A DNA stretch of 64,000 nucleotides from Kitasatospora sp. Root107 (GTDB taxonomy: Bacteria; Actinomycetota; Actinomycetes; Streptomycetales; Streptomycetaceae), in assembly GCF_001424875.1 (NCBI RefSeq), contig NZ_LMCT01000034.1, positions 174,315 through 238,314 on the forward strand, given 5' to 3'. Below are positions 41,339-62,431 of this stretch, in pieces. Under the pieces are notes generated by a model. The model did not search any database. It worked only from the letters and a program-made list of their open reading frames with translations, and had not been told where the DNA came from. Made by a program: the position numbers and the translations under genes. Each line of letters starts with the position of its first letter. Within the stretch, counting starts at the first letter, position 1.

Positions 41339-42025
41339 ATGACCGTGCTCCCCGATCGGGACGGATTCGACGCCCCCGTCACACTCGACCGGCGCGAGGG
41401 CCCGTACGGCGAGGTGGCGCTGCGGCGGCGCGGTGGGCACTACGAGATCATCGCGAACGGCTGCTTCCTGATGGACACCGCCGACGGCCGGTCCGAACGG
41501 CTGCTGATCCAGGCCGCGTTGGACGAGCTGACGGCCGAGCGGCCGGCGGTGCTGATCGGCGGCCTCGGAGTCGGCTTCTCGCTCGCCTACGCGGCGGCCG
41601 AGCCGCGCTGGGCGCGGATCGCGGTGGCCGAGCGGGAGGACGCGATCATCGACTGGCACCGCACCGGACCGCTGGCCGCGTTCTCCGAACACGCTCTGGA
41701 CGACCCCCGGGTGGCGGTGCTGCACGGCGACCTGGTGGCCTACCTGGCCGCTGACGGCGAGCGCTTCGACGCGCTCTGCCTCGACATCGACAACGGCCCG
41801 GACTGGACGGTCACCGAGGAGAACTCCGGCCTGTACGGCCCGGCCGGGCTGGCCGCCGCGCAGCGTCGGCTCAACCCCGGTGGGGTGCTGGCGGTGTGGA
41901 GCGCGCAGCCGTCCGCAGGCTTCGAGGAAGCACTGCGGACGGCCGGGTTCACGGACGTGCGGACCGAGGAGATCCCGGTCCTGCGCGGCGTACCCGATGT
42001 GGTGCACCTGGCACGCCGCGCCTGA
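41339..42025 (+). CDS. Spermidine-synthase-like methyltransferase-fold protein
   Basis: A 228-residue Rossmann-fold protein resembling the polyamine synthase/SpeE-like family. The glycine motif VLIGGLGVGFSLA is followed by the acidic strand 'IAVAEREDAIIDW' and the segment 'DALCLDIDNGPDW', with the DxD-like acidic pair of the active site. It lacks an N-terminal beta-hairpin domain of full SpeE. Members are widespread single genes in actinomycetes and their substrate is not known. ATG at 41339. It converges on the chitinase gene with a 7-bp gap. Confidence 0.8.
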   Translation: MTVLPDRDGFDAPVTLDRREGPYGEVALRRRGGHYEIIANGCFLMDTADGRSERLLIQAALDELTAERPAVLIGGLGVGFSLAYAAAEPRWARIAVAEREDAIIDWHRTGPLAAFSEHALDDPRVAVLHGDLVAYLAADGERFDALCLDIDNGPDWTVTEENSGLYGPAGLAAAQRRLNPGGVLAVWSAQPSAGFEEALRTAGFTDVRTEEIPVLRGVPDVVHLARRA

Positions 42026-52192: not shown

Positions 52193-54958
52193 TCAGCCGA
52201 GGCCGCCGAGCTTGAGGGCGAGCTGGTCCGCGGCGGTGGTGTCGCCGAGCTCGGCGAAGATGTCGCGGGCCTCCCGCCAGGCCTCCCCGGCGGCGGCGGG
52301 GTCGCCCGCGGCGTGTGCGGTGTCGCCGAGGTGGGTGAGCAGCGAGGCCTCGTTGAACCGGTCGCCGAACTCGCGGTAGATGTCGCGGGCCTGTTCGTAG
52401 CAGCGGATGGCCTCCGGGTGCCGGCCGACGTTGTGGTGCACGAAACCCAGGGTGTCCAGGGTGGCGCTCTCGCCGCTGCGGTCGCCGATCTCCCGCTGCC
52501 GGGCGAGGGCGCGCTCGCAGCAGCCGACCGCCGCCTCGTACCCGCCGAGCTGGGTGTGGCACCAGCCCATGTTGTTGAGCGCCCTGGCCTCGCCGACCCG
52601 GTTGTCCGCGGCCTGGTACTTCGTCAGCGCCAGGGTCGCCTGCTCCAGTGCCCGGTGGAAGTCCTGCCGCCGTTCGAACACCAGGGTCAGGGTGTTGTGG
52701 CAGTGGGCCTGACCGAGCGGGTCGCCGAGCTCCTCGAGCAGCACGACCGCCCGGTGCAGCTGACGTTCGGCCTCCGCGTAGCGGCCCATCCTGGCGTTGG
52801 CCCGGCCCAGTTCACGGTGCGCCGCCGCGCGGCCGGACCGGTCGCCCAGCCGGCCCGCCGCGTCCAGCGCGGCGCGCTGGGTGGTCGCCCAGTCCTGCCA
52901 GTGGCCGCGCTGTTCGAGGTAGGTCGACATGCTCCGGGCCAGCAGCCCCACGTAGGCGTCGTCGGCCGCGTCGACCGCGGTCAGCAGGGTCTGGTGCTCG
53001 GAGGCGAACCACGCCAGCGCGCCCTCGCGGTCGGCGAAGCCCGCGGGTGGCACCAGGGAGGTGGGCGCGGGGAGCTCGATCGGGTCGCGATGGTCCAGCA
53101 TCGCGCCGGCGGCGTGCGCGGTGTGCAGGTAGTAGTCGACCAGCCGCTGCCGGGCGTGGACCTGCTCCACGGGCGGGACGTCGTCGTGGGCGAGCTCGGT
53201 GGCGTACGCCCGGAGCAGGTCGTGCATGCCGTACCGGTCGGGGCCGATCGGGTGCACCAGGTGGGCGCGGGTGAGCATGGTCAGGGCCGCGCGGGTGTCC
53301 GCCGGGCTGCGCCCGGCGAGGGCGGCGGAGGCGCTCAGCGAGATGTGCGGACCGAGCTGAAGGCCCAGTAAGCGAAAGACCCGCGCCGCCGTCGCGGGCA
53401 GGTGCTGGTACGACCAGGAGAAGACCGCGCTGATCGGATGGCCGACCGAGTCCAGCATGCTCAACCGCCTTCGCCGGTCGGCCAGTTCGGACACCAGGTA
53501 CGGCAGCGGGGTGGTGCGCAGGGTGGCGGCGAGTTCGGCGGCCACCCGGAGTGCCAGGGGTAAGCCGACGCACTGGGCGGCCAGCGATTCGCTGACCGCC
53601 GGTTCGCAGTCGACGCGCTCGCCGATCAGCCTGCGCAGCAGGTCCAGCGAGTCGCTCATCGGGAGCAGGTCCAGGCCGAGCCGTCGGGCACCGTGCCGGG
53701 CGACCAGCTCGCCCAGACTGTCGCGGCTGGTCACCACGACCGCGCAGGACGCGGTGCCGGGCAGTAACGGCCTGACCTGGTCCACCGATGATGCGTTGTC
53801 GAGCAGGATGAGGATCCGGCGCCCGCTGACCTCGGTCCGGTACCGGGTCACCCGGTCGGCGGGCTCGACCGGGATCTCCTGGGCGGGCAGGCCGAGTGCC
53901 GACAGCAGCCTGGACAGTGCGTCCTCGCCGGAGAGCGGCTGCTGCGGGTCGTAGCCCCGTAGGTCGACATAGAGCTGCCCGTCCGGGAACCGGGCCCGGG
54001 CCAGGTGCGACCAGTGCAGTGCGAGCGCCGTCTTGCCGACCCCGGCCGTCCCCGACACCACCGCGATCGGCACCGCGTTGCCGCCCGCCTCGACCAACAC
54101 CTGGTCCAGGTCGGCGAGTTCGCGCTGCCGGCCGACGAAGTCGGTCACATCGCCGGGCAGGGCCGCGGGCACCAGCCGGCGCGGTGCGCCCGGGGCGTGG
54201 CGGCGGGTGTCCTCGGCCAGCAGTGAGTGGTAGACGGAGACCAGCTCCGGGCCCGGGCTGATGCCCAGTTCGTCGCTGAGCCGTCGCCGGACCTCGTGGT
54301 AGGTGCTGACGGCCGCCGCCCGTCGGCCTGCGGCCCGGTAGCCCCGGAGCAGCCGGGCCAGCGCCGCCTCGTCCAACGGGCGTGCGTGCGCCGCCTGTTC
54401 GAAGAGCACGACCGCCTCGTCGGCCGCTCCGGCGGCCAACAGGGTCTCCCCCTTGGCGGCCAGCGCCGCGTACCGCTCCTCGATCAGTGCGAGGGCCGCC
54501 GGATGGGCCGCCAGCGCCGGGACGTCGGACAGCGGCGCGGCCGCCCGCCACAGGGCCAGCGCGGCGTCGAACAGGGCGAGCGCCGTTGCGTGGTCGCCCG
54601 ACTGCCGTGCCGCCGCGGCCTGGTCGACCCTCGTGCGGAACGAGCGGACGTCGATGTCGCAGCCCTGGGCGCGGAGGCGGTAGCCGTCGCCGGCCGAGGG
54701 CAGCAGCTGGCTCGGGGTACGGGGCGGCCGTTCGGGTTCGAGCAGCTTCCGCAGGTGCTTGACGTGGGTCTGGATGACGTTGACGGCGCTGTGCGGCGGG
54801 TCGTGCTGCCAGAGCGCGTCGATCAGCTCCGCTCTGGACACCGGCCGGCCCGAGGCCAGCGCGAGCAGACCGAGCACGGCCCGCCTGCCCGCGGTCGGGA
54901 TGTCGATCGGGGCCCCGTCCCGTAACACCCGCACCGGGCCGAGCAGCTGGATCTGCAC
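52193..54958 (-). CDS. AfsR/SARP-family cluster-situated regulator with four TTA codons
   Basis: A 921-residue regulator: an OmpR-like winged HTH (1-95; MQIQLLGPVRVL at the start), a bacterial transcriptional activation domain (about 95-245), an NB-ARC ATPase (about 265-570; P-loop SGTAGVGKTAL, 'GLPLAL' box) and C-terminal TPRs (about 640-900). SARPs activate secondary-metabolite genes. Leucine codons 12, 398, 466 and 530 are TTA, whose translation in Streptomyces depends on the bldA tRNA. GTG 54958 has AAAGGAG 6 bp upstream. It is divergent from a six-gene operon whose promoter has SARP-like heptad repeats, so it is most likely its activator. Confidence 0.93.
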   Translation of the reverse strand: MQIQLLGPVRVLRDGAPIDIPTAGRRAVLGLLALASGRPVSRAELIDALWQHDPPHSAVNVIQTHVKHLRKLLEPERPPRTPSQLLPSAGDGYRLRAQGCDIDVRSFRTRVDQAAAARQSGDHATALALFDAALALWRAAAPLSDVPALAAHPAALALIEERYAALAAKGETLLAAGAADEAVVLFEQAAHARPLDEAALARLLRGYRAAGRRAAAVSTYHEVRRRLSDELGISPGPELVSVYHSLLAEDTRRHAPGAPRRLVPAALPGDVTDFVGRQRELADLDQVLVEAGGNAVPIAVVSGTAGVGKTALALHWSHLARARFPDGQLYVDLRGYDPQQPLSGEDALSRLLSALGLPAQEIPVEPADRVTRYRTEVSGRRILILLDNASSVDQVRPLLPGTASCAVVVTSRDSLGELVARHGARRLGLDLLPMSDSLDLLRRLIGERVDCEPAVSESLAAQCVGLPLALRVAAELAATLRTTPLPYLVSELADRRRRLSMLDSVGHPISAVFSWSYQHLPATAARVFRLLGLQLGPHISLSASAALAGRSPADTRAALTMLTRAHLVHPIGPDRYGMHDLLRAYATELAHDDVPPVEQVHARQRLVDYYLHTAHAAGAMLDHRDPIELPAPTSLVPPAGFADREGALAWFASEHQTLLTAVDAADDAYVGLLARSMSTYLEQRGHWQDWATTQRAALDAAGRLGDRSGRAAAHRELGRANARMGRYAEAERQLHRAVVLLEELGDPLGQAHCHNTLTLVFERRQDFHRALEQATLALTKYQAADNRVGEARALNNMGWCHTQLGGYEAAVGCCERALARQREIGDRSGESATLDTLGFVHHNVGRHPEAIRCYEQARDIYREFGDRFNEASLLTHLGDTAHAAGDPAAAGEAWREARDIFAELGDTTAADQLALKLGGLG

Positions 54959-54996
54959 GCGTGGCTCCTTTGCCGTTTCGCGCCGAATTTCGCCCG

Positions 54997-55084
54997 ACTG
55001 GACGGCTGCTGATGTTCCGTCCAGTCGCCGTCCAGTGACTGTTCGTAGGTTATCGAAGGTCCAATCGAAGGGGGAACGTTATAT
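54997..55084 (+). promoter_or_regulatory. SARP-binding-like heptad repeats and promoter of the biosynthetic operon
   Basis: GTCCAGT (55019-55025), GTCCAGT (55030-55036) and GTTCGTA (55041-55047) follow an exact 11-bp period (7+4), the SARP box geometry. An inverted partner ACTGGACGG (54997-55005) mirrors CCGTCCAGT (55017-55025). ATCGAAG repeats at 55052 and 55064. TTATAT (55079-55084) is a possible -10 box about 9 bp beyond the last repeat. Confidence 0.6.
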
Positions 55085-55099
55085 GGGCGGCGTTGACGC

Positions 55100-56152
55100 A
55101 TGTCCGGAGCCGAGAGACCGGATGCGGCTGGTGGGCGCCTCGTGACGCTGCGGCTGCATGCCAACGAACACCCGCAGGGCCCCTCGGCGGCCGTCGCCGA
55201 GGCCCTGCACGCGCTGGTGCCCGAGCTGCACCGGTATCCGGTGCCGTCGAGCGCGGTGGAGACCGCGATCGCGGAGCTGTACGACGTCCCGCTGAACCGG
55301 GTGCTGGTCGGCGCGGGCAGTGCCGAGATCATCGGCCTGGCCTGGCGGGCCTTCACCTCGCCTACCCGGGCCGCGTTCTTCCACGAGCCCGAGTTCGAGC
55401 TCTATCCGCTGCTCGGCACCCAGTGCGGCACGCCGACGCTCAGCCGGCCGTGGCCGCCGGACGGCGACGTGACAGGGCAGTTGGCAGAGCAGTTGGCGGA
55501 GGCGTCCGTCGGTCTGGTGGCGCTGTCCAACCCGCACAATCCGACGGGTGCCTACCGGCCCCGGCAGACCGTCGCGGACCTGGCGGGCAGCCTGCCGGAG
55601 ACCACCGTGGTGCTCAATGACGAGGCGTACCACGACTATGCCGAGCCGGCCGAGGACGAGCTCTCGCTCTCCGCGCTGTCCGAACTGCCCAACGTGCTGA
55701 CCACCAGGACGTTCTCGAAGATCCACGGGCTGGCCGGCCTGCGGATCGGCTACGGCATCGGCAGTGCCCGGCTGATCGGTGCGCTCCGGTCGCTGCAGAT
55801 GCCGTTCAGCGTGAGCGCCGCCGCCGCGGCCGCCGCACTGGCCGCGCTGGCCGACCCGGCGGTGCCGGGGGAGCGGCGCGAGCGCAACCGGCTGAACCGG
55901 GCGGCTCTGGCGGGCGCGCTGGCCCGGCGGGGCTTCGAGGTGACACCGAGTCAGGCCAACTTCCTGTTCGTCCGGCCGCCGCACGACCGGTCCTGCTGGG
56001 CCACCGATCTGCTCGACCGCGGTGTCCGGGTCCAACCGGCCGGTACCGGCCTGCGGGTGACCGTGGGCTCCGAGACCGATATCGCCGCTCTCATCACGGC
56101 AGTTGACGACGTCCTGGCCGTCGGCCGGACGCGAAACCTGGGGGAACAATGA
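55100..56152 (+). CDS. HisC-like class I/II PLP aminotransferase of the putative biosynthetic operon
   Basis: A 350-residue fold-type I aminotransferase closest in pattern to histidinol-phosphate aminotransferases: N-terminal substrate motif LHANEHPQGPS, NPHNPTG (N147), DEAYHDY (D174, Y177) and cofactor lysine K207 in TRTFSKIHGLAGLRIGYGI. HisC-like enzymes also serve aromatic and specialised 2-oxo acids. Beside an MppJ-like methyltransferase, it may interconvert an amino acid and its 2-oxo acid before and after methylation. ATG 55100 lies only about 10-16 bp after the putative -10 box, so the message may be nearly leaderless; GTG 55142 is an alternative. It overlaps the next gene by 4 bp. Confidence 0.88.
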   Translation: MSGAERPDAAGGRLVTLRLHANEHPQGPSAAVAEALHALVPELHRYPVPSSAVETAIAELYDVPLNRVLVGAGSAEIIGLAWRAFTSPTRAAFFHEPEFELYPLLGTQCGTPTLSRPWPPDGDVTGQLAEQLAEASVGLVALSNPHNPTGAYRPRQTVADLAGSLPETTVVLNDEAYHDYAEPAEDELSLSALSELPNVLTTRTFSKIHGLAGLRIGYGIGSARLIGALRSLQMPFSVSAAAAAAALAALADPAVPGERRERNRLNRAALAGALARRGFEVTPSQANFLFVRPPHDRSCWATDLLDRGVRVQPAGTGLRVTVGSETDIAALITAVDDVLAVGRTRNLGEQ

Positions 56153-57150
56153 CCAGCCTTGTGATCGACGACGTCTACAACAACACGCTGACGGCGTACG
56201 CGATATCGGCCGCCTGGGAGCTCGGCCTGCTGGAGCGGCTGGACAGCTCGGAGCAGCCGGTGGACCTGGCCGGCTTCGCCCGGGAGCAGGACCTGCACGC
56301 ACCCTCGGTGGAGGCGATCGCCCGTGGGCTGGCGATCGCCGGGATCGTGGTGCTCAGCTCCGAGCACCGATTCGCCACGCCGGGACCGCTGTTCGCCGAC
56401 ACCTGGGCGAAGAAGGGCTTCTTCTACTGGCTGACCAGGGGCTGCGGCGAGCTGTTCCGGAGCATGCCGGAGCTGGTCAGGAACCCCAGCCGGACCGGGG
56501 ACTTCGTGGTGCGCGACTACAAGGCGATCGGTCTGGCCGCGCGGGACGCGGGCTTCTCCTACGTGGACCCGACCTTCTACAAGATCATCTCCGACCGCGG
56601 TCTCAGGTACGGCGCCGACCTCGGCTGCGGCAGTGGCGAGCGACTGATCAAACTCGCCGGGCGCGACCCGGAGTTCCGTGGGATCGGGGTGGACTTCGCG
56701 CCGGGCGCGGTGGCGCTGGCCACCGATTCGGTCGCGAAGGCCGGCCTCGAGCAGCGCATTTCGGTGGTGCGCGGTGACGCGACCAGGATGGCGTACCAGC
56801 CGGAGTTCGGCGAGGTCGACTTCGTGTGCTGCTTCATGATGGGACACGACCTCTGGCCGCGCGAGGAGTGCCTGGCCAGCCTGAAGCTGATCGGTGAGGC
56901 GTTCCCGGCGGCGACCGACCTGATCATCTGCGACACCTACCGCTCCGATCTGCCGACCACCGAGCAACACCCGGTCTTCACCCTGGGCTTCGAGACCGCC
57001 CACGCCGTGATGGGCCAGATGATCCCCTCGCTGGACGAGTGGAACGGGGTGCTGGCGGAGGCGGGCTGGCAGCGGGCGGACGTCGTCGACTTCGACCTGC
57101 CGCCGTACACCGCGCTGATGCACCTCACCCGTGAGCGGCCGGGCGCATGA
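56149..57150 (+). CDS. MppJ-like 2-oxo-acid beta-C-methyltransferase (SAM dependent)
   Basis: A 333-residue methyltransferase: N-terminal helical domain with NTLTAYAISAAWELGLLE, GELFRSMPEL and VRDYKAIG, then a class I Rossmann domain with SAM motif DLGCGSGER (157-165). The pattern follows MppJ, the phenylpyruvate beta-methyltransferase of mannopeptimycin synthesis, as I remember it. Two histidines in conserved contexts, H233 (MMGHDLWPRE) and H285 (TAHAVMG), correspond to the iron-binding pair of MppJ. It should methylate the beta carbon of a 2-oxo acid; the substrate side chain is open. It overlaps both neighbours by 4 bp (ATGA). Confidence 0.88.
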   Translation: MTSLVIDDVYNNTLTAYAISAAWELGLLERLDSSEQPVDLAGFAREQDLHAPSVEAIARGLAIAGIVVLSSEHRFATPGPLFADTWAKKGFFYWLTRGCGELFRSMPELVRNPSRTGDFVVRDYKAIGLAARDAGFSYVDPTFYKIISDRGLRYGADLGCGSGERLIKLAGRDPEFRGIGVDFAPGAVALATDSVAKAGLEQRISVVRGDATRMAYQPEFGEVDFVCCFMMGHDLWPREECLASLKLIGEAFPAATDLIICDTYRSDLPTTEQHPVFTLGFETAHAVMGQMIPSLDEWNGVLAEAGWQRADVVDFDLPPYTALMHLTRERPGA

Positions 57151-58383
57151 CCGACCGGACCACTCAGGGCAGGCACATCCTCGTACTCAACCGCTTCAAC
57201 GCGGAGGTGGGCTGCCACTACACCGACTACGTCGACCACACCGCCGACCGGGTCGCCTACCTCACCTCGGCGGTCGGGCGCAGCGGCGTCGACGCCGAAC
57301 TGGCCGAGACCGTGGCCGTGGTGGACGACCTGGCGGACTGGGCGGCGGTGTCGGAGCTGGCCCTCGGCATCGTCCGGCAGTACGGCCCGCTGGACCACGT
57401 CGTCGCGCTGTTCGAGCGTGACCTGGAGGTCGCGGCCGCCCTGCGCGAGCTGTTGGGGGTGGCGGGCCCGGGGCCGGCCGAGGTCGAGCGGGTCCGCGAC
57501 AAGGTGACGATGAAACAGCTCGTCGCCGCCGCGGGCCTGCGGGTGCCACGGTTCGTCGTCGCCGACGCACCCGAGGAGGTCCGCCGGTTCACCGGGGAAT
57601 CCGGGTTCCCGGTGGTGCTCAAACCCCGGGACGGCTCGGGCAGTCAGGGCATCTACCTGGTCAACTCTCTTGCCTCGCTGGAGGTGACGCTCGCTTCGCC
57701 GCTGGAGAACTACGTCTGCGAGGAGTTCGTCAGCGGGACGATGTACCAGGTCGACGGCGTCGTGCAGGACGGCACCGTGCGGGTGCTGCGGGCCTTCCGC
57801 CTGCTGAACACCTGTCTGGACTACGCCCTGGGCGACCCGTTCGGCTCGGTGGCCGGGGACGACCCGGTGCTGGAGCAGCGGCTGGTCGGCTACGCGGAGC
57901 GGGTGCTGGCCGCCCTCGGGGTGCGCAGCAGCGTGTTCCACCTGGAGGTGTTCGCGGTCGACCCGGCCGGTCCCGGCGAGTATGAGGGGCTGGTGTTCCT
58001 CGAGGTGGCCGCGCGGGCGGGCGGGGCGGAACTGCCGCACCTCTGGCGCGAGGTGTACGGGCTCGACCTGCTCGAGGTCGCCACCCGGCTGTCGCTGGGG
58101 GAGTCCCCGGTGCTGCCCGAGCTCGATCCCACCGGCCCGGCCGGTGGCTACCTGCTGATGCCGGAGCCGCCGGTCAGGCCGTGCCGGGTGCTGTCGACGC
58201 CCCCCCGGCGGGGCCAAGGAGACCGGCGGGCGCTACCGGTTCCGGGCGTCCAGCGGGGCCGAGATCGAACGCGCGATCAGGCAGGTGCTGGAGGAGTACG
58301 AGCTGACCTGGGAGCCGGTCGCCGAGCCCGCCGCGGCGGTCTTCCGGGTGAAGGGACGCGCACAGTCCCTGGCCCGTCCGTGA
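57147..58383 (+). CDS. ATP-grasp ligase (L-amino-acid ligase/BacD-like), frameshifted at a C7 run in this sequence
   Basis: ATP-grasp carboxylate-amine ligase. Residues about 115-130 (RDKVTMKQLVAAAGLRVPRF) start the ATP-binding part, the ATP loop is VVLKPRDGSGSQGIYLV (about 157-172), and the metal-binding acidic pair lies in 'FHLEVF' and 'GLVFLEVAARAGG'. The frame from ATG 57147 is good to the run of seven C at 58200-58206. After it the original frame gives a low-quality Arg/Gly peptide, while the +1 frame continues as GAKETGGRYRFRASSGAEIE, IRQVLEEYELTWEP... and stops at 58383, just where the MFS gene starts (GTGA). With six C the protein is 411 residues, normal for the family. The ligase would join the (methylated) amino acid to a second substrate. 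Confidence 0.8.
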
Positions 58384-59672
58384 GCGTGCCGCCCGCGGCG
58401 CCGCGCTTCGGCGAGGTCTTCGCCATCGGCGAGTTCCGGATGCTGTGGCTGGCGCAGCTCACCGCGGTCGGCGGCAACCAGCTGGCCAGGGTGGCGCTGG
58501 CGCTGCTGGTGTTCGCCCGGAGCGCGTCGGCGGGTCTGGCGGCGCTGACCTACGCCCTGACCCTGCTGCCCGAGCTGGTGGGCGGTCCGCTGCTGTCCTG
58601 GCTGGCGGACCGCTACCCACGGCGCGGGCTGATGGTGGTCTGCGACCTGGCCCGGGCCGGCCTGGTCGCCGCGATGGCCGTGCCCGGCACCTCACTGTGG
58701 CTGCTGTGCGGGTTGCTGATCCTCGTTCAGCTGGTGCAGTCGCCGCACCTGGCGGCCCGCTCGGCGCTGCTGCCGACCGTGGTGCCCGGCGAGCGTTACC
58801 TGGCCGCCGCCGCGGTGGTCAACGTGACGGCCCAGCTCGGCCAGCTGGCCGGGTTCGCGGCGGGCGGCGTCGCGGTCGCGGCGCTCGGCACCTCGCAGGC
58901 GCTGCTGATCAACGCGGGCACCTTCGTGCTGTCGGCGCTGCTCACCTGGTCCGGCCTCGCGCGGCGGCCGAGGCCGAGCGGGCCCGCGCCGGGCAGCAGC
59001 AGACGGAGCGCGATCACCGGCGGGGCCGCCCTGGTCCGGGCCGACCCCAGGCTGGGCCTGCTGGTGGCCTTCGGGTGCCTCTCGGGTTTCTACGCGTGCA
59101 AGGAGGGCCTGGCGGCGCCGTACGCCGAAGCCCTCGGGCACGGCCCGACCGGGGTCGGTCTGCTGCTCGCGGCGAGCCCGGCCGGTGCCGTGATCGGCGT
59201 GTTCGTCCTCACCCGCCTGGTGAGCCCGGAGCGCGGTCTGCGGCTGCTCGGCCCGTTGGCGGTGGCCGCCAGCGGGGTGCTGGTGTTCACCGCGCTGTCC
59301 CCGGGGATTGCCGTCACCTGTGTGCTGTGGGGGGTGTCCGGGCTCTTCTCGGCCTTCCAGGTCCCCGCGAACGCCGCCTACAGCAGCTCGGTGCCGGACG
59401 CCCTGCGCGGCCAGGCGTTCGGGCTGGCCTCCACCGCCGTCCGGGTGGCCCAGGGGGTCGGCATCTCGCTGGCCGGGTTCGCCGCCGACCTGGTCCCGGC
59501 GCCGGTCGTGATCGCGGCGTTCGGGGTCACGGGCGCGGCGGTCTCCACCGTGGTCGCGCTCCGGTGGTCCAGGCTCCCGCAGCGCGCCTTGGAGGCACCG
59601 AAGGAGCTGGTGCCCACCGGCAAGTCACTCACCGTCAGAACCCAGGAAGCCGAATCCGAGGAAGTCGAATGA
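58380..59672 (+). CDS. MFS efflux transporter
   Basis: Major facilitator of 430 residues with twelve predicted helices. The loop 2-3 motif reads LADRYPRRGLMVV, and the start APRFGEVFAIGEFRMLWLAQ is typical of DHA-type antibiotic efflux proteins. The GTG at 58380 overlaps the ligase stop (GTGA). The continuous open frame from the ligase start only looks like a fusion because of the single-base shift upstream. As part of the operon it is the likely exporter or self-resistance protein for the product. Confidence 0.88.
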   Translation: MSVPPAAPRFGEVFAIGEFRMLWLAQLTAVGGNQLARVALALLVFARSASAGLAALTYALTLLPELVGGPLLSWLADRYPRRGLMVVCDLARAGLVAAMAVPGTSLWLLCGLLILVQLVQSPHLAARSALLPTVVPGERYLAAAAVVNVTAQLGQLAGFAAGGVAVAALGTSQALLINAGTFVLSALLTWSGLARRPRPSGPAPGSSRRSAITGGAALVRADPRLGLLVAFGCLSGFYACKEGLAAPYAEALGHGPTGVGLLLAASPAGAVIGVFVLTRLVSPERGLRLLGPLAVAASGVLVFTALSPGIAVTCVLWGVSGLFSAFQVPANAAYSSSVPDALRGQAFGLASTAVRVAQGVGISLAGFAADLVPAPVVIAAFGVTGAAVSTVVALRWSRLPQRALEAPKELVPTGKSLTVRTQEAESEEVE

Positions 59673-61021
59673 CCACCACGCCCGTTCTGACCCCCGTCGA
59701 GCCACCGGGACAGCAGCTGCACGGCACCCTGCGCCCACGTCACCTCACCATGCTGGCCATGGGCGGGGTGATCGGGTCCGGTCTGTTCGTCGGCTCCGGC
59801 GCGGGCATCGCGCTGGCCGGGCCCGGCATCGTGCTGTCGTTCGTGGCCGCCGGCGTGCTCACCATGCTGGTGATGCGGATGATGGCCGAGATGGCCGCCG
59901 CGTTCCCGTCCAGCGGTTCGTTCTCCGAGCACGCGGAGCTGGCCTTCGGCCCGTGGGCCGGCTTCACCATCGGCTGGCTGTACTGGGTGACCATCGTGGT
60001 GGTGCTCGCCGTCGAGTCCACGGCGGCCGCCGTGATCGTGCACGGCTGGCTGCCCGGGGTCCCGCAGTGGCTGCTGATGCTGCTCTTCATGACGGTCTTC
60101 ACCGGCGTCAACCTCACCGCGGTCGGCAACTTCGGCGAGTTCGAGTTCTGGTTCGCCCTGATCAAGGTCGCGGCGATCGTCGGCTTCCTGGTGCTGGGCC
60201 TGCTGGCGATCCTCGGCGTGCTGCCTGGGAAGAACGCCGGGGCGCTGACCGGCGATCTGCTGCCGCACGGCTGGGGCGGCGTGGTTGCGGGCTTCGTGGC
60301 GGCCGTGCCCGCGTTCGGTGGTCTGGAGGTGGTGACCATCGCTGCCGCCGAGTCCGACAACCCGGTCCAGGCCGCGGGCCGGGCGGTCCGGAGCGCGGTG
60401 TGGCGGATCTCGGTCTTCTACATCGGGTCGATGATCGTCCTGGTGAGCCTGCTGCCGTGGCACGACTCACGCCTCGGCGCCAGCCCGTTCGTGGCGGTCC
60501 TCGAGGAGATCGGGGTGCCGGGCGCGGCGCAGATCATGAACGTGGTGGTGGTGCTCGCGCTGCTCTCGGCCCTGAACGCCGGTACCTATGCCGCTGCCCG
60601 GATGGCCTTCTCGCTGGCCCGGCGCGGCCAGGCCCCGGCGGCCCTGACCAGAATCAGCCGAACCGGCGTCCCCTACCCGGCAGTTCTCGCCTCCACCGCG
60701 TTCGGCTTCGGGGGAGTGGTGCTGAACCTGCTCTGGCCGCAGACGATCTTCCTGCACCTGCTGAACGCGGTCGGCACGGTGCTCCTGCTGGTCTGGCTGC
60801 TGGTGGCCTGCTCACAACTCCGGCTCCGCAGCCGCCTGCCGGAGGGGACGCCGGTCAGGATGTGGGGGCATCCCTACCTGAGCTGGCTCACCCTGGCCGT
60901 CATCGTCGCGCTGCTGGGGCGGATGTCCGTCGACCACGGCACCCGGGTCCAGCTGGTCAGCTCGGCGGTGCTCGCACTGGTGGTGCTGACCGCCGCCCTG
61001 ATCCGCCACCGCCGAGCCTGA
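59669..61021 (+). CDS. APC-superfamily amino-acid permease
   Basis: Twelve-helix amino-acid transporter of 450 residues, of the AAT (GabP/AnsP-like) family. The first helix motif MLAMGGVIGSGLFVGSG contains the unwound GxG substrate site, and helix 3 to 6 regions (MMAEMAAAFPSSGSFSEHAE; VPAFGGLEVVTIAAAESDNP) are characteristic. ATG 59669 overlaps the MFS stop. It could import the precursor amino acid, recapture a shunt product or exchange amino acid for product. Confidence 0.9.
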   Translation: MTTTPVLTPVEPPGQQLHGTLRPRHLTMLAMGGVIGSGLFVGSGAGIALAGPGIVLSFVAAGVLTMLVMRMMAEMAAAFPSSGSFSEHAELAFGPWAGFTIGWLYWVTIVVVLAVESTAAAVIVHGWLPGVPQWLLMLLFMTVFTGVNLTAVGNFGEFEFWFALIKVAAIVGFLVLGLLAILGVLPGKNAGALTGDLLPHGWGGVVAGFVAAVPAFGGLEVVTIAAAESDNPVQAAGRAVRSAVWRISVFYIGSMIVLVSLLPWHDSRLGASPFVAVLEEIGVPGAAQIMNVVVVLALLSALNAGTYAAARMAFSLARRGQAPAALTRISRTGVPYPAVLASTAFGFGGVVLNLLWPQTIFLHLLNAVGTVLLLVWLLVACSQLRLRSRLPEGTPVRMWGHPYLSWLTLAVIVALLGRMSVDHGTRVQLVSSAVLALVVLTAALIRHRRA

Positions 61022-61033
61022 GGAGAGAGCACG

Positions 61034-62395
61034 ATGGATCGCATGTCGTTGACCCGGGAGTACCTGGCCCGGGTGGCCGAAAGTGGCGCCAAGGCAGCGG
61101 AGTTGACGGGTGATCAGCAGGGCTCCGTACTGCTCGACACCTTCTACCGGGGCAGGTACCTGTCGCGTCCGCTCTTTCTCGGCGAAGCCGAGCGGGTCCG
61201 GCTGCATGCCGACCTGGAGAACCTGCGGACGGCGCTGGCCGGCCTGCCCGACCAGCTGTTCGGCGGCGACTTCGCGGCGTTCGCCCGCGCGGTGGGGCTG
61301 ACCGAGGTGCAGGTCTCCGCCGTCCTGCGGGGCCGGGGCCCCTCGGTCTCCCGGCAGACCCGGGCCGACCTGTACGTGGACGAGAGCGGGTTCAAGCTGC
61401 TGGAGCTCAACATCGGCAGCGCGGTCGGCGGCATGGACAACGCCGACATGTGCCGCGAGCTGCTCCGGCACCCGGTGCTCGCCGAGTTCGCCGGGAGCCA
61501 CGGCCTCGGCTTCGTGGACTCGCTGCGCGAGCAGGTGGACAACGTCCTCGCGGAGGGCGGTTTCCGGCCGGGCGACCGCCCGGTGGTCGCGTTGACGGAC
61601 TCGCCGGACGGCTACCGGAAGATGCTGCCGTACATGGAGGAACTCTGCGCGCGCTGGCGGGAGTTGGGCCTGGACGCGCACCCCTGCCACCTCGGGCAGC
61701 TGTCGGCGCGGGACGGCCGGGTGTGGCTGGGCGAGCGGCCGGTGGACGTGATCTTCCGGGTGTTCCTGATCGGGGACCTGGTGAAGTTCCCGGAGGTGCC
61801 GGCGTTGATGGATCCGGTCCTGGACGCCGCAGAGCGCGGCGAGGTCAGGATCTTCACGCCCTTGGACTCCGCCGCGTACGCCAGCAAGGGCGCGCTCGCG
61901 CTGCTCTCGGACGAGCGCAACCGTGGTCTGTTCGGCGCCGAGGTGCTGGCCAGCCTGGACCGGATCCTGCCGTGGACCCGGATGGTCCGCCCGGGGCCGG
62001 TCACGCTGGAGAGCGGGGAACGCGTCGACCTGGTCGACCACGCCCTGGCGCACCAGCGGCAGTTGGTGCTCAAGCCGACCTCGCTGGCCGGTGGCGACGG
62101 GGTGCTGCTCGGCTGGGCGGACGGCCTCGGGGCGGAGCAGTGGCGCGAGCAGATCCTGGCCGCGCTGGACGGCCCGTTCATCCTCCAGCGCCGGGTCAGC
62201 CCGATCCCGGAGCTGTATCCCGACGAGAACGGCGAGCTGCAGCCGTGGACGGCCCTGTGGGGAGTGTTCACCGGAGCCGCCGGCCACGGCGGCGCCTACA
62301 TCCGGGCCACCCCGGCCGTCGGGGGCGAGGGCGTGGTGAACGTGGCGACCGGGGCACACGCCGGGGCCGTGCTGCAGGAGCGGGCCGGTCACTGA
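61034..62395 (+). CDS. Second ligase of the operon, probable (circularly permuted) ATP-grasp enzyme
   Basis: A 453-residue protein, ATG 61034 after GGAGAGAG, 12 bp behind the permease gene. The C-terminal third has ATP-grasp-like elements: QLVLKPTSLAGGDGVLLGW (about 343-361) as the nucleotide loop and 'GPFILQRRVSPIPELYPD' after it. The middle has LYVDESGFKLLELNIGSAVG and GMDNADMC, recalling the acidic metal-binding segments of glutathionylspermidine-synthase-like, circularly permuted ATP-grasp enzymes. No closer function is recognised. With the first ligase it suggests two amide-bond-forming steps without NRPS modules. A strong terminator follows. Confidence 0.75.
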   Translation: MDRMSLTREYLARVAESGAKAAELTGDQQGSVLLDTFYRGRYLSRPLFLGEAERVRLHADLENLRTALAGLPDQLFGGDFAAFARAVGLTEVQVSAVLRGRGPSVSRQTRADLYVDESGFKLLELNIGSAVGGMDNADMCRELLRHPVLAEFAGSHGLGFVDSLREQVDNVLAEGGFRPGDRPVVALTDSPDGYRKMLPYMEELCARWRELGLDAHPCHLGQLSARDGRVWLGERPVDVIFRVFLIGDLVKFPEVPALMDPVLDAAERGEVRIFTPLDSAAYASKGALALLSDERNRGLFGAEVLASLDRILPWTRMVRPGPVTLESGERVDLVDHALAHQRQLVLKPTSLAGGDGVLLGWADGLGAEQWREQILAALDGPFILQRRVSPIPELYPDENGELQPWTALWGVFTGAAGHGGAYIRATPAVGGEGVVNVATGAHAGAVLQERAGH

Positions 62396-62400
62396 GGACT

Positions 62401-62431
62401 GGGGCCGGGGTGCCTGCCACACCCCGGCCCC
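62401..62431. terminator. Bidirectional terminator at the end of the biosynthetic operon
   Basis: Perfect 12-bp stem GGGGCCGGGGTG / CACCCCGGCCCC with a 7-base loop, 6 bp after the ligase stop and just before the convergent aldehyde dehydrogenase stop. It marks the right border of the operon. Confidence 0.85.

Follow-up and report, generated by a model that had tools for sequence, protein, structure and literature searches.

Bacilysin formation combines the ligase BacD, the exporter BacE and the aminotransferase BacF. The locus described here, located in a 64-kb stretch of DNA (the window) that probably comes from Kitasatospora, follows the same logic with an L-amino acid ligase, an MFS exporter and an aminotransferase. 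Unlike in the bacilysin system, genes leading from prephenate to anticapsin were not seen at the locus, which additionally encodes a methyltransferase as well as another ligase, of a different type. The mannopeptimycin enzyme MppJ and the jomthonic acid enzyme JomM share with the locus a C-methylation of a 2-oxo acid followed by transamination, according to the sections of the sources consulted (PMC6117699, PMC11496134). Their product, beta-methylphenylalanine, is passed to an NRPS or PKS-NRPS, whereas the window copy lacks an NRPS, its methyltransferase falls into a separate clade, and the operon itself also encodes an aminotransferase and two ligases. The phosphonoalamide pathway of Streptomyces yields an NRPS-free tripeptide with an aminotransferase (PnaA) and the ATP-grasp ligases PnaB and PnaC, which are likened here to ligases 1 and 2 by their description. 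It differs in a phosphonoalanine headgroup, and the consulted part of the source names no methyltransferase (PMC11867202). Two successive stand-alone amide-forming enzymes, one of them an ATP-grasp protein, also occur in the cystargolide (CysC, CysD) and belactosin (BelV, BelU) pathways. There, the other ligase is adenylate-forming, the product carries a beta-lactone warhead, and an MppJ-like methyltransferase is not named in the available portion of the text; one producer is a Kitasatospora (PMC11427300). Among the papers listed by searches of the open-licence PMC literature, several of them aimed at single enzymes, none showed a characterised cluster with the whole gene set, and within that scope the proposed novelty holds. 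The kinds of enzyme are known; the gene combination and the ligase 2 family were not found described.

The unit comprises seven genes, a SARP gene and, divergent from it, the genes for the aminotransferase (AT), the methyltransferase (MT), ligase 1, an MFS protein, an APC permease and ligase 2, ending at position 62395. The analysis established by computation which genes belong to the unit, how it is conserved and bounded, the class of each enzyme, which catalytic residues are kept, and the operator-like repeats. Coordinates, strands and gene order agree with the original prediction. The claimed tight packing is reflected in 4-bp ATGA or GTGA overlaps at the AT/MT, MT/ligase 1, ligase 1/MFS and MFS/APC junctions, and in a spacing of 12 bp between the APC and ligase 2 genes. 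Streptomyces sp. TSRI0281 and a close relative carry the whole block with unchanged gene order (68-80% identity), and both preserve the 4-bp overlaps. Identities to the TSRI0281 proteins are 75% (SARP), 69% (AT), 80% (MT), 72% (MFS), 78% (APC) and 75% (ligase 2); ligase 1 shares 79% over the 350 residues preceding a frame break. Because the set is found again, identically ordered, in two further genomes, the block is beyond chance, and because the Streptomyces flanks differ from those in the window, its borders are fixed. The conserved co-occurrence set beforehand as a check was thus found, in two genomes. An ortholog of the MT was found in three genomes only, two of them the near-identical Streptomyces. 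The operon probably represents a portable, SARP-controlled biosynthetic unit whose product would be a small peptide or pseudopeptide assembled without an NRPS.

The SARP gene (52193..54958, minus strand) encodes a large AfsR-like regulator of 921 amino acids with Trans_reg_C, BTAD, NB-ARC and TPR domains. The earlier family calls are borne out by these domains, by PF00155 for the AT, by MFS_1 for the exporter and by AA_permease for the APC protein. The nearest NCBIfam models each score below their own cut-offs: AfsR for the SARP (489.7 bits, cut-off 1430), HisC for the AT, and the GABA permease TIGR01773 for the APC protein (480.7 bits, cut-off 678.1). The predicted MFS exporter (58380..59672, plus strand) matches MFS_1 and 2A0121. 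The APC amino-acid permease (59669..61021, plus strand) matches PF00324 with E 5.5e-110. In the SARP-AT divergent region, two copies of CGTCCAGT with an 11-bp period (55018..55036, plus strand) precede the operon. SARP sites are direct repeats with a spacing of 11 or 22 bp, according to the consulted part of the source (PMC10936776), and the CGTCCAGT repeats are a probable, predicted SARP operator. Both Streptomyces orthologs keep them, together with a third, less exact copy. With at most one mismatch, the repeat pattern has a single match in the 8.17-Mb genome; a reversed-pattern control also has one, at another place. With at most two mismatches, one match occurs in the window against 0.06 expected, and the pattern is present in 6 of 100 shuffles. 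The regulator is a probable pathway-specific activator. At the other end, the feature previously called a perfect terminator does form a perfect 12-bp stem (62401-62412 and 62420-62431, loop of 7) in a hairpin at 62401..62431 of the plus strand. It is a possible terminator, but it has no T tract, the terminator scan did not report it, and neither Streptomyces copy folds a like hairpin in the 60 nt examined after ligase 2.

The AT (55142..56152, plus strand) belongs to class I/II (PF00155) and to the HisC/ArAT subfamily; translation may start at 55142 (GTG) or 55100 (ATG). Numbered from 55100, its pocket consists of A75, F99, L101 and F236, with K207 as the PLP lysine. The protein is 32% identical (99/308) to the ArAT of Mycobacterium tuberculosis, of which Arg322 is replaced by Gln312. 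In the consulted part of the source, the pocket of mArAT is hydrophobic (Val86, Phe110, Leu112, Phe246), that of mHspAT polar (Asn103, Tyr127, Met129, Tyr261) (PMC4703992). The AT has the pocket of an aromatic aminotransferase (ArAT/Pat); in the Streptomyces copies, position 101 is Phe. Hence the designation as a HisC-like aminotransferase stands for the subfamily, not for the pocket, which is that of an aromatic transaminase. A true HisC was considered and rejected, as the polar HspAT pocket is absent and TIGR01141 scores 230.7 bits, below the cut-off of 276.55. A HisC in a his operon (read by eye) and another HisC/ArAT-type paralogue are encoded elsewhere in the genome.

The MT (56149..57150, plus strand, 333 amino acids) is a predicted MppJ-like 2-oxo-acid C-methyltransferase, assigned by phmmer. 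Its best match is MppJ (4kib, E 1.4e-77). The best entry named as an O-methyltransferase, a D-glucose O-methyltransferase, reaches E 1.1e-4, and PF00891 scores 21.3 bits, below the cut-off of 22.3. The comparison asked for in the original prediction thus comes out for an MppJ-type C-methyltransferase and not an O-methyltransferase. Residues W94, R122, H233, D234 and H285 are invariant in 45 of 45 sequences. The metal-binding histidines of MppJ are presumably H243 and H295, with a Trp, an Arg and an Asp at the substrate site, which fits the MppJ-MT alignment; the MT carries this histidine pair and all three substrate-site residues. SgvM, which we take to be the entry 8ftr, uses 4-methyl-2-oxovalerate as substrate, and MrsA methylates 2-ketoarginine. 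The metal ligands of SgvM are H244 and H296 in the consulted part of the source (PMC10502145). In a tree with an arbitrary root, the MT is one of three rows that make up a clade of their own, with support 100/100 and a stem of 1.07. The rows labelled mannopeptimycin-like and jomthonic-like by a reading of their gene contexts lie elsewhere, and the MT does not group with known phenylpyruvate methyltransferases. Stretches around the pocket and in the C-terminal loop are unlike those of MppJ-like sequences. Owing to the long separate stem and these differing stretches, homology does not give the substrate. They would suit methylation of a non-aromatic 2-oxo acid, derived from Leu, Arg or another residue as with SgvM and MrsA. 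We regard such a substrate as unlikely, though worth keeping in view: the MT is far closer to MppJ than to 8ftr (E 4.8e-17) or the 2-ketoarginine methyltransferase (E 2.4e-6), and the AT carries the ArAT pocket. An aromatic substrate is preferred.

Ligase 1 (57147..58383, plus strand) is an ATP-grasp protein of the L-amino acid ligase type, assigned by sequence matches to the L-amino acid ligases 4wd3 (E 1.3e-17) and 3vot (E 2.2e-7); BacD structures match weakly (E 1.9e-5 to 1.1e-4). The gene had been taken as intact, but its frame is broken near 58200 relative to two orthologs. The open reading frame from 57147 reads through into the MFS gene as a single frame of 841 amino acids, while the true C-terminus lies in another frame, whose stop overlaps the MFS start. 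The break arises since 75 nt common to both Streptomyces orthologs are replaced by a run of seven C (58200..58206, plus strand), a net change of -68 nt; in TSRI0281 and its close relative the gene is open over 434 amino acids. The 68-nt loss is either genuine or due to faulty assembly, so that in the sequenced strain either the pathway is blocked at ligase 1 or ligase 1 is mis-assembled. A decaying cluster that no longer makes its product would account for the confirmed break, yet it has only a minor share of our expectation: the six other genes remain open frames, and the break coincides exactly with the sole C or G run of at least seven in the 64 kb, which suggests a fault in this 73-contig draft assembly.

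Ligase 2 (61034..62395, plus strand, 453 amino acids) is a predicted ATP-grasp enzyme of the glutathione/glutathionylspermidine-synthetase type, assigned by fold match. The window protein matched no Pfam or NCBIfam family, and a PDB search with this protein alone retrieved Pizza6 designed proteins (E 7.7e-5 and 0.006) and nothing else. Its structure model (pLDDT 70, pTM 0.71) gave 28 Foldseek matches at E <=0.001, with 8fbz at E 6.8e-12. In structure comparison, the first 26 entries have Z 14.9-17.9, followed by 7.4, with 17.9 for YgiC and 16.7 for Cp1B. The model has the overall fold of glutathione and glutathionylspermidine synthetases. Cp1B, 2hgs, 2io7 and YgiC share this fold but differ in substrate, and identity is low (10-16% in alignments with Z >14). 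Among 22 sequences of the family, R110, D112 and E124 are invariant and N126 nearly so, in a region (residues 105-132) modelled with pLDDT <50. They may correspond to the R-x-D and E-x-N catalytic and Mg2+ motif, spaced as in E. coli GspS. The CP_ATPgrasp_2 family is reached by 6 of the 22 members at E <=1 (best 2.8e-5), and the family profile reaches Cp1B weakly (E 1.4e-4). The earlier term, a second ATP-grasp-like ligase, thus stands for an amide-type ligase, and the model sharpens it to a putative glutathione-synthetase type in an uncatalogued family. Relatives occur in stretches rich in ATP-grasp genes, both within the genus of the window and in further actinobacteria. Of the 23 ligase 2 stretches examined (16-21 kb), 17 contain a further ATP-grasp gene, against 1 of 19 somewhat shorter stretches around MT genes. 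Tentatively, and with the balance slightly against it, the family may consist of natural-product amide ligases paired with L-amino acid ligases across numerous actinobacterial clusters that encode several ligases; in the present operon, ligases 1 and 2 would then build a new class of NRPS-free tripeptides around a beta-methyl aromatic residue.

In the consulted part of one source, Cp1B is the E-64 pseudodipeptide ligase, joining epoxysuccinate to an amino acid, and YgiC is titled a peptide-spermidine ligase in its reference list (PMC12568646). This structural neighbourhood would agree with an amide or pseudopeptide of a beta-methyl amino acid, resembling E-64 or dapdiamide instead of a true peptide, in which ligase 2 joins an amine or a non-amino-acid carboxylate. 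Such a product is rather improbable, as the block appears to encode no enzyme for forming an amine or a dicarboxylate, and ligase 1 is nearest to L-amino acid ligases. No NRPS relative is present among the 53 genes called in the window, in line with the claimed NRPS independence. That the block is not independent but provides an adjacent NRPS pathway with the beta-methyl residue is highly unlikely: both Streptomyces copies are followed directly downstream by an NRPS cluster that includes a mutase-like gene pair, and NRPS relatives lie within four genes at 12 of the 19 MppJ-like MT loci examined (13 with a weak hit), but no relative of the Streptomyces NRPS occurs among the 53 genes or in the 19 kb past ligase 2, the seven-gene block is complete in the window without it, and an exporter and two ligases would be unnecessary for feeding an NRPS.

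The operon is thus best read, with fair probability, as a path that needs no NRPS and leads to a small peptide or amide built with a beta-methyl amino acid that is probably aromatic. For the reaction and substrate at every step, the sequence of steps, the second building block and the product, we infer the following. The metal-dependent MT would methylate C3 of a 2-oxo acid with an aromatic (or another hydrophobic) side chain, supplied either by the shikimate pathway or by transamination. Initial deamination of an amino acid, previously proposed as the first step, is not a necessity, since the 2-oxo acid could come directly from the shikimate pathway. The dedicated AT would convert the methylated 2-oxo acid into a beta-methyl L-amino acid. 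Ligase 1 would form one amide bond and ligase 2 the second; the expected two ligations without an NRPS accord with two amide-type ligases, one recognised by its matches, the other by its fold. The MFS protein would export the product, and the APC permease may import or recycle an amino acid.

Genome mining with Pfam or NCBIfam models may miss the ligase 2 family, because no model covers the window member. The named strain TSRI0281 has an intact copy, so that the idea can be put to a direct test. Aromatic amino acids with a beta-methyl group are difficult to obtain by chemical synthesis, and the characterised cases found feed an NRPS or PKS-NRPS. If the proposed route is true, a compact gene set comprising a transaminase of its own and two free-standing ligases would provide a short, portable path to beta-methyl aromatic peptides.

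The block runs from an AfsR-like SARP regulator of 921 aa (52193-54958, minus strand) to a second ATP-grasp ligase. Six plus-strand genes lie opposite the regulator: an aminotransferase (AT, ending at 56152), an MppJ-like methyltransferase (MT, 56149-57150), an ATP-grasp ligase (LIG1, 57147-58383), an MFS gene (58380-59672), an APC permease (59669-61021) and LIG2 (61034-62395). The first AT start, 55100, is uncertain; the ortholog of Streptomyces sp. TSRI0281 starts at about the position equivalent to 55142. Coordinates, strands and gene order bear out the predicted SARP with six plus-strand genes, and the tight packing predicted is found: genes overlap by 4 bp at four junctions and are separated by 12 bp at the fifth.

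A LIG2 pattern scan of a genome collection, recovering close relatives only, gave five loci. The locus of TSRI0281 (L009), a strain of another genus in the same family, carries all seven genes in the order and orientation of the window. Identities to the window are 75% for SARP, 69% for AT, 80% for MT, 79% over 350 aa for LIG1, 72% for MFS, 78% for APC and 75% for LIG2. MT is absent from the examined stretch of the remaining four loci. A search with MT in 392 genomes of the genus of TSRI0281 gave matches in 28 at E 1e-40; among these, G450, a close relative of TSRI0281, holds an 80% ortholog, and the others show 39-47% identity to the window MT. At E 1e-95, two of the 392 genomes matched, G450 and the TSRI0281 genome itself (G695). 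The order sample (391 genomes) yielded 23 matches at E 1e-40, all at or below 47% identity except the own genome, which alone matched among 346 phylum genomes at E 1e-60. The genus and order samples overlap, and their totals are not additive. From these outcomes the seven-gene unit is rare. The block is also complete in G450 (96-98% identity to TSRI0281), so that the expected co-occurrence is conserved, in the same order, in both Streptomyces genomes.

Genes of other genomes were called by a codon-based procedure trained on window genes, those of the block included, and were named by similarity or by eye. On such names, a two-component system lies to the left of the Streptomyces copies and MbtH-, mutase- and NRPS-like genes lie to their right, unlike the flanks in the window. 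Because the flanks differ, the unit appears to be bounded by SARP and LIG2. No relative of the Streptomyces-flank NRPS was found among the 53 genes called in the window or in 19 kb past LIG2 (L131, a stretch of the surrounding sequence). Downstream of the TSRI0281 block (L009:12304-21357) and in the matching part of L109, from the other Streptomyces genome, the NRPS cluster includes two mutase-like genes that by eye resemble glutamate mutase. The predicted terminator after LIG2 was rejected as a conserved feature, as no similar hairpin occurs in the 60 nt examined 3' of the orthologs.

The SARP-AT gap contains two 8-mers with an 11-bp period at 55018-55036 (CGTCCAGTCGCCGTCCAGT). This pattern has no other match in the whole genome at up to one mismatch; a reversed-pattern control likewise gave one match, and rarity alone is thus no proof. 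At up to two mismatches, 0.06 matches are expected in the window. In an otherwise poorly conserved gap, both Streptomyces copies retain the two repeats and have a third, less perfect one; this retention is better evidence than rarity for putative operator-like repeats. In the literature, SARP sites take the form of direct repeats with a spacing of 11 or 22 bp (PMC10936776). A 10-bp inverted repeat, GACTGGACGG / CCGTCCAGTC, was seen by eye at 54996-55026, overlapping the first operator-like box. It was not seen in the Streptomyces copies, and its 10-mer recurs at 41801.

LIG1, predicted as an intact gene, proved to be frame-broken near 58200. One 841-aa frame from 57147 spans LIG1 into the MFS gene, and the true C-terminus of LIG1 sits in a different frame. 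When the 434-aa ortholog served as query, the own genome returned two pieces, residues 6-353 and 369-434, on overlapping stretches. Relative to both Streptomyces orthologs, a C7 run at 58200-58206 replaces 75 nt, a net loss of 68 nt, which excludes a simple +1 homopolymer slip with one extra base. The loss may be a real deletion. A local assembly fault is possible as well: the break coincides exactly with the sole C or G run of at least seven in the 64 kb, and the genome (8.17 Mb, 73 contigs) is a draft.

Among solved structures, MT is nearest to MppJ (E 1.4e-77), followed by 8ftr, which we take to be the 4-methyl-2-oxovalerate methyltransferase SgvM (E 4.8e-17), and by a 2-ketoarginine methyltransferase (E 2.4e-6). 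An O-methyltransferase identity was rejected on this comparison, and the reading as a C-methyltransferase stands. Trp94, Arg122, His233, Asp234 and His285, equivalent to W99, R127, H243, D244 and H295 of MppJ, are identical in all 45 family sequences. The metal ligands of SgvM are given as H244 and H296 (PMC10502145). A tree of 45 sequences was built from the window MT, both of its orthologs and the 44 non-orthologous matches of the genus and order searches; 42 of these entered the tree, the other two having no usable gene call or locus. The window MT and its orthologs form their own clade (support 100/100, stem 1.07), apart from sequences near mannopeptimycin-like and jomthonic-like genes, contexts named by reading. 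Owing to this separation, the substrate is not transferable from MppJ. Control loci of 12-16 kb were taken around 19 of the 44 non-orthologous matches. NRPS relatives lie at most four genes away in 12 of the 19, with a weak match in one more; an AT relative adjoins MT in two, and the stretch of one contains an ATP-grasp gene. At L127:7501-15999, a locus of genome G693, an MppJ-like MT adjoins an ATP-grasp gene, and PEP mutase- and phosphonopyruvate decarboxylase-like genes were seen nearby by eye. The product of this locus may be a phosphonopeptide that bears a C-methylated residue.

In PDB, AT matches HisC (E 1.9e-29) and the aromatic aminotransferase ArAT of Mtb (E 2e-29) equally well. Residues distinguishing ArAT (V86, F110, L112, F246) from HspAT (N103, Y127, M129, Y261) have been described (PMC4703992). 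AT carries A75, F99, L101 and F236 at these positions, a hydrophobic set of the aromatic type; the Streptomyces copies carry Phe instead of L101. The predicted HisC-like character holds for overall similarity but not for the pocket. A housekeeping HisC role was rejected, since the genome has HisC in an apparent his operon (contig C11, genes read by eye) and a further HisC/ArAT-type paralogue on contig C3. Together, the MT matches, the AT pocket and the separate HisC favour a beta-methyl aromatic amino acid as the probable building block.

Of the solved structures, the L-amino acid ligase 4wd3 is closest to LIG1 (E 1.3e-17), and 3vot comes next. The window LIG2 had no match in Pfam or NCBIfam. 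A single-sequence phmmer search against PDB hit nothing but a pair of Pizza6 designed proteins (E 7.7e-5 and 0.006); both matches consist of single stretches below 8 bits and were taken as spurious. Of 61 genomes searched, 23 have LIG2 relatives, a count that includes the own genome; the weakest of these matches are partial. In the pattern scan, Kitasatospora phosalacinea is among the two closest named relatives (75% identity). A profile of 22 members, 30-75% identical to the window LIG2, matched Cp1B weakly (9cjn, E 1.4e-4), with four others at E 0.23 or worse. Individual members reached CP_ATPgrasp_2 (6/22), CP_ATPgrasp_1 (3/22) and GSP_synth (2/22). A model computed with AlphaFold from six sequences (pLDDT 70, pTM 0.71) resembled human glutathione synthetase (Foldseek E 6.8e-12), YgiC (Z 17.9; 337 residues aligned at rmsd 4.0) and Cp1B (Z 16.7; 386 residues aligned at rmsd 4.1); among the folds compared, Z drops from 14.9 to 7.4 for other ATP-grasp folds. 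By predicted fold, LIG2 is a putative ligase of the glutathione-synthetase type, and its family is uncatalogued. Cp1B has been verified as a pseudodipeptide ligase; it couples epoxysuccinate to an amino acid in the NRPS-independent E-64 pathway (PMC12568646).

LIG2 neighbourhoods comprised 23 stretches of 16-21 kb, five from the pattern scan and 18 regions covering 19 of the 29 non-own matches of the 61-genome search (the strongest, with G040:C99, a contig of another genome, omitted). A second ATP-grasp gene like LIG1 is present in 17 of the 23, compared with one of the 19 MT stretches (12-16 kb), and a strong LIG1 relative (>120 bits) in seven compared with none. Five pairs among the 23 represent the same cluster in related genomes; collapsed by hand, the count with an ATP-grasp gene is 14 of 18. 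By these counts, LIG2 appears to be a regular companion of other ATP-grasp ligases. AT and MT are both present in L009 alone among the 23, and LIG2 was seen with the MT-AT pair in this operon only.

Other ligase arrangements were observed. In two related genomes (L052:2678-17322, L053:3335-17598), LIG2 relatives of about 870 aa are fused to an N-terminal part, ATP-grasp-like by eye. Their neighbours in this odd peptide cluster are a LIG1 relative and, by eye, HypF/HypE-like genes and a mutase-like gene pair. At four loci (L011, L046, L048, L049), LIG2 relatives lie next to other ATP-grasp genes and to a gene resembling, by eye, class I aminoacyl-tRNA synthetases. The own genome holds six ATP-grasp matches at C10:4214-39500 (L062, L063), one 41% identical to TSRI0281 LIG1, along with a SARP gene and, by eye, sulfate-activation-like and carbamoyltransferase-like genes, possibly another multi-ligase peptide cluster.

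In the proposed pathway, a 2-oxo acid would be methylated at C3 by MT and transaminated by AT. The amino acid would be ligated by LIG1, the product ligated again by LIG2, and the final product exported. Phosphonoalamide biosynthesis includes an aminotransferase and two ATP-grasp ligases able to build a tripeptide (PMC11867202). Its ligases PnaB and PnaC, like CysD and BelU of cystargolide and belactosin assembly, are set beside LIG1 and LIG2 by description. In jomthonic acid biosynthesis, JomM (55% to MppJ) serves a PKS-NRPS (PMC6117699). Openly licensed PMC literature, covered mostly by titles and abstract openings, yielded no paper on TSRI0281 and, among the papers listed, none describing the seven-gene set, in agreement with the original prediction of a candidate undescribed pathway. 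A paper on peptidyl-aminonucleoside synthetase names ATP-grasp once, among its references. Every enzyme class in the block is already known. The block is a real, conserved and compact biosynthetic unit, and the chemistry proposed from its genes is plausible.
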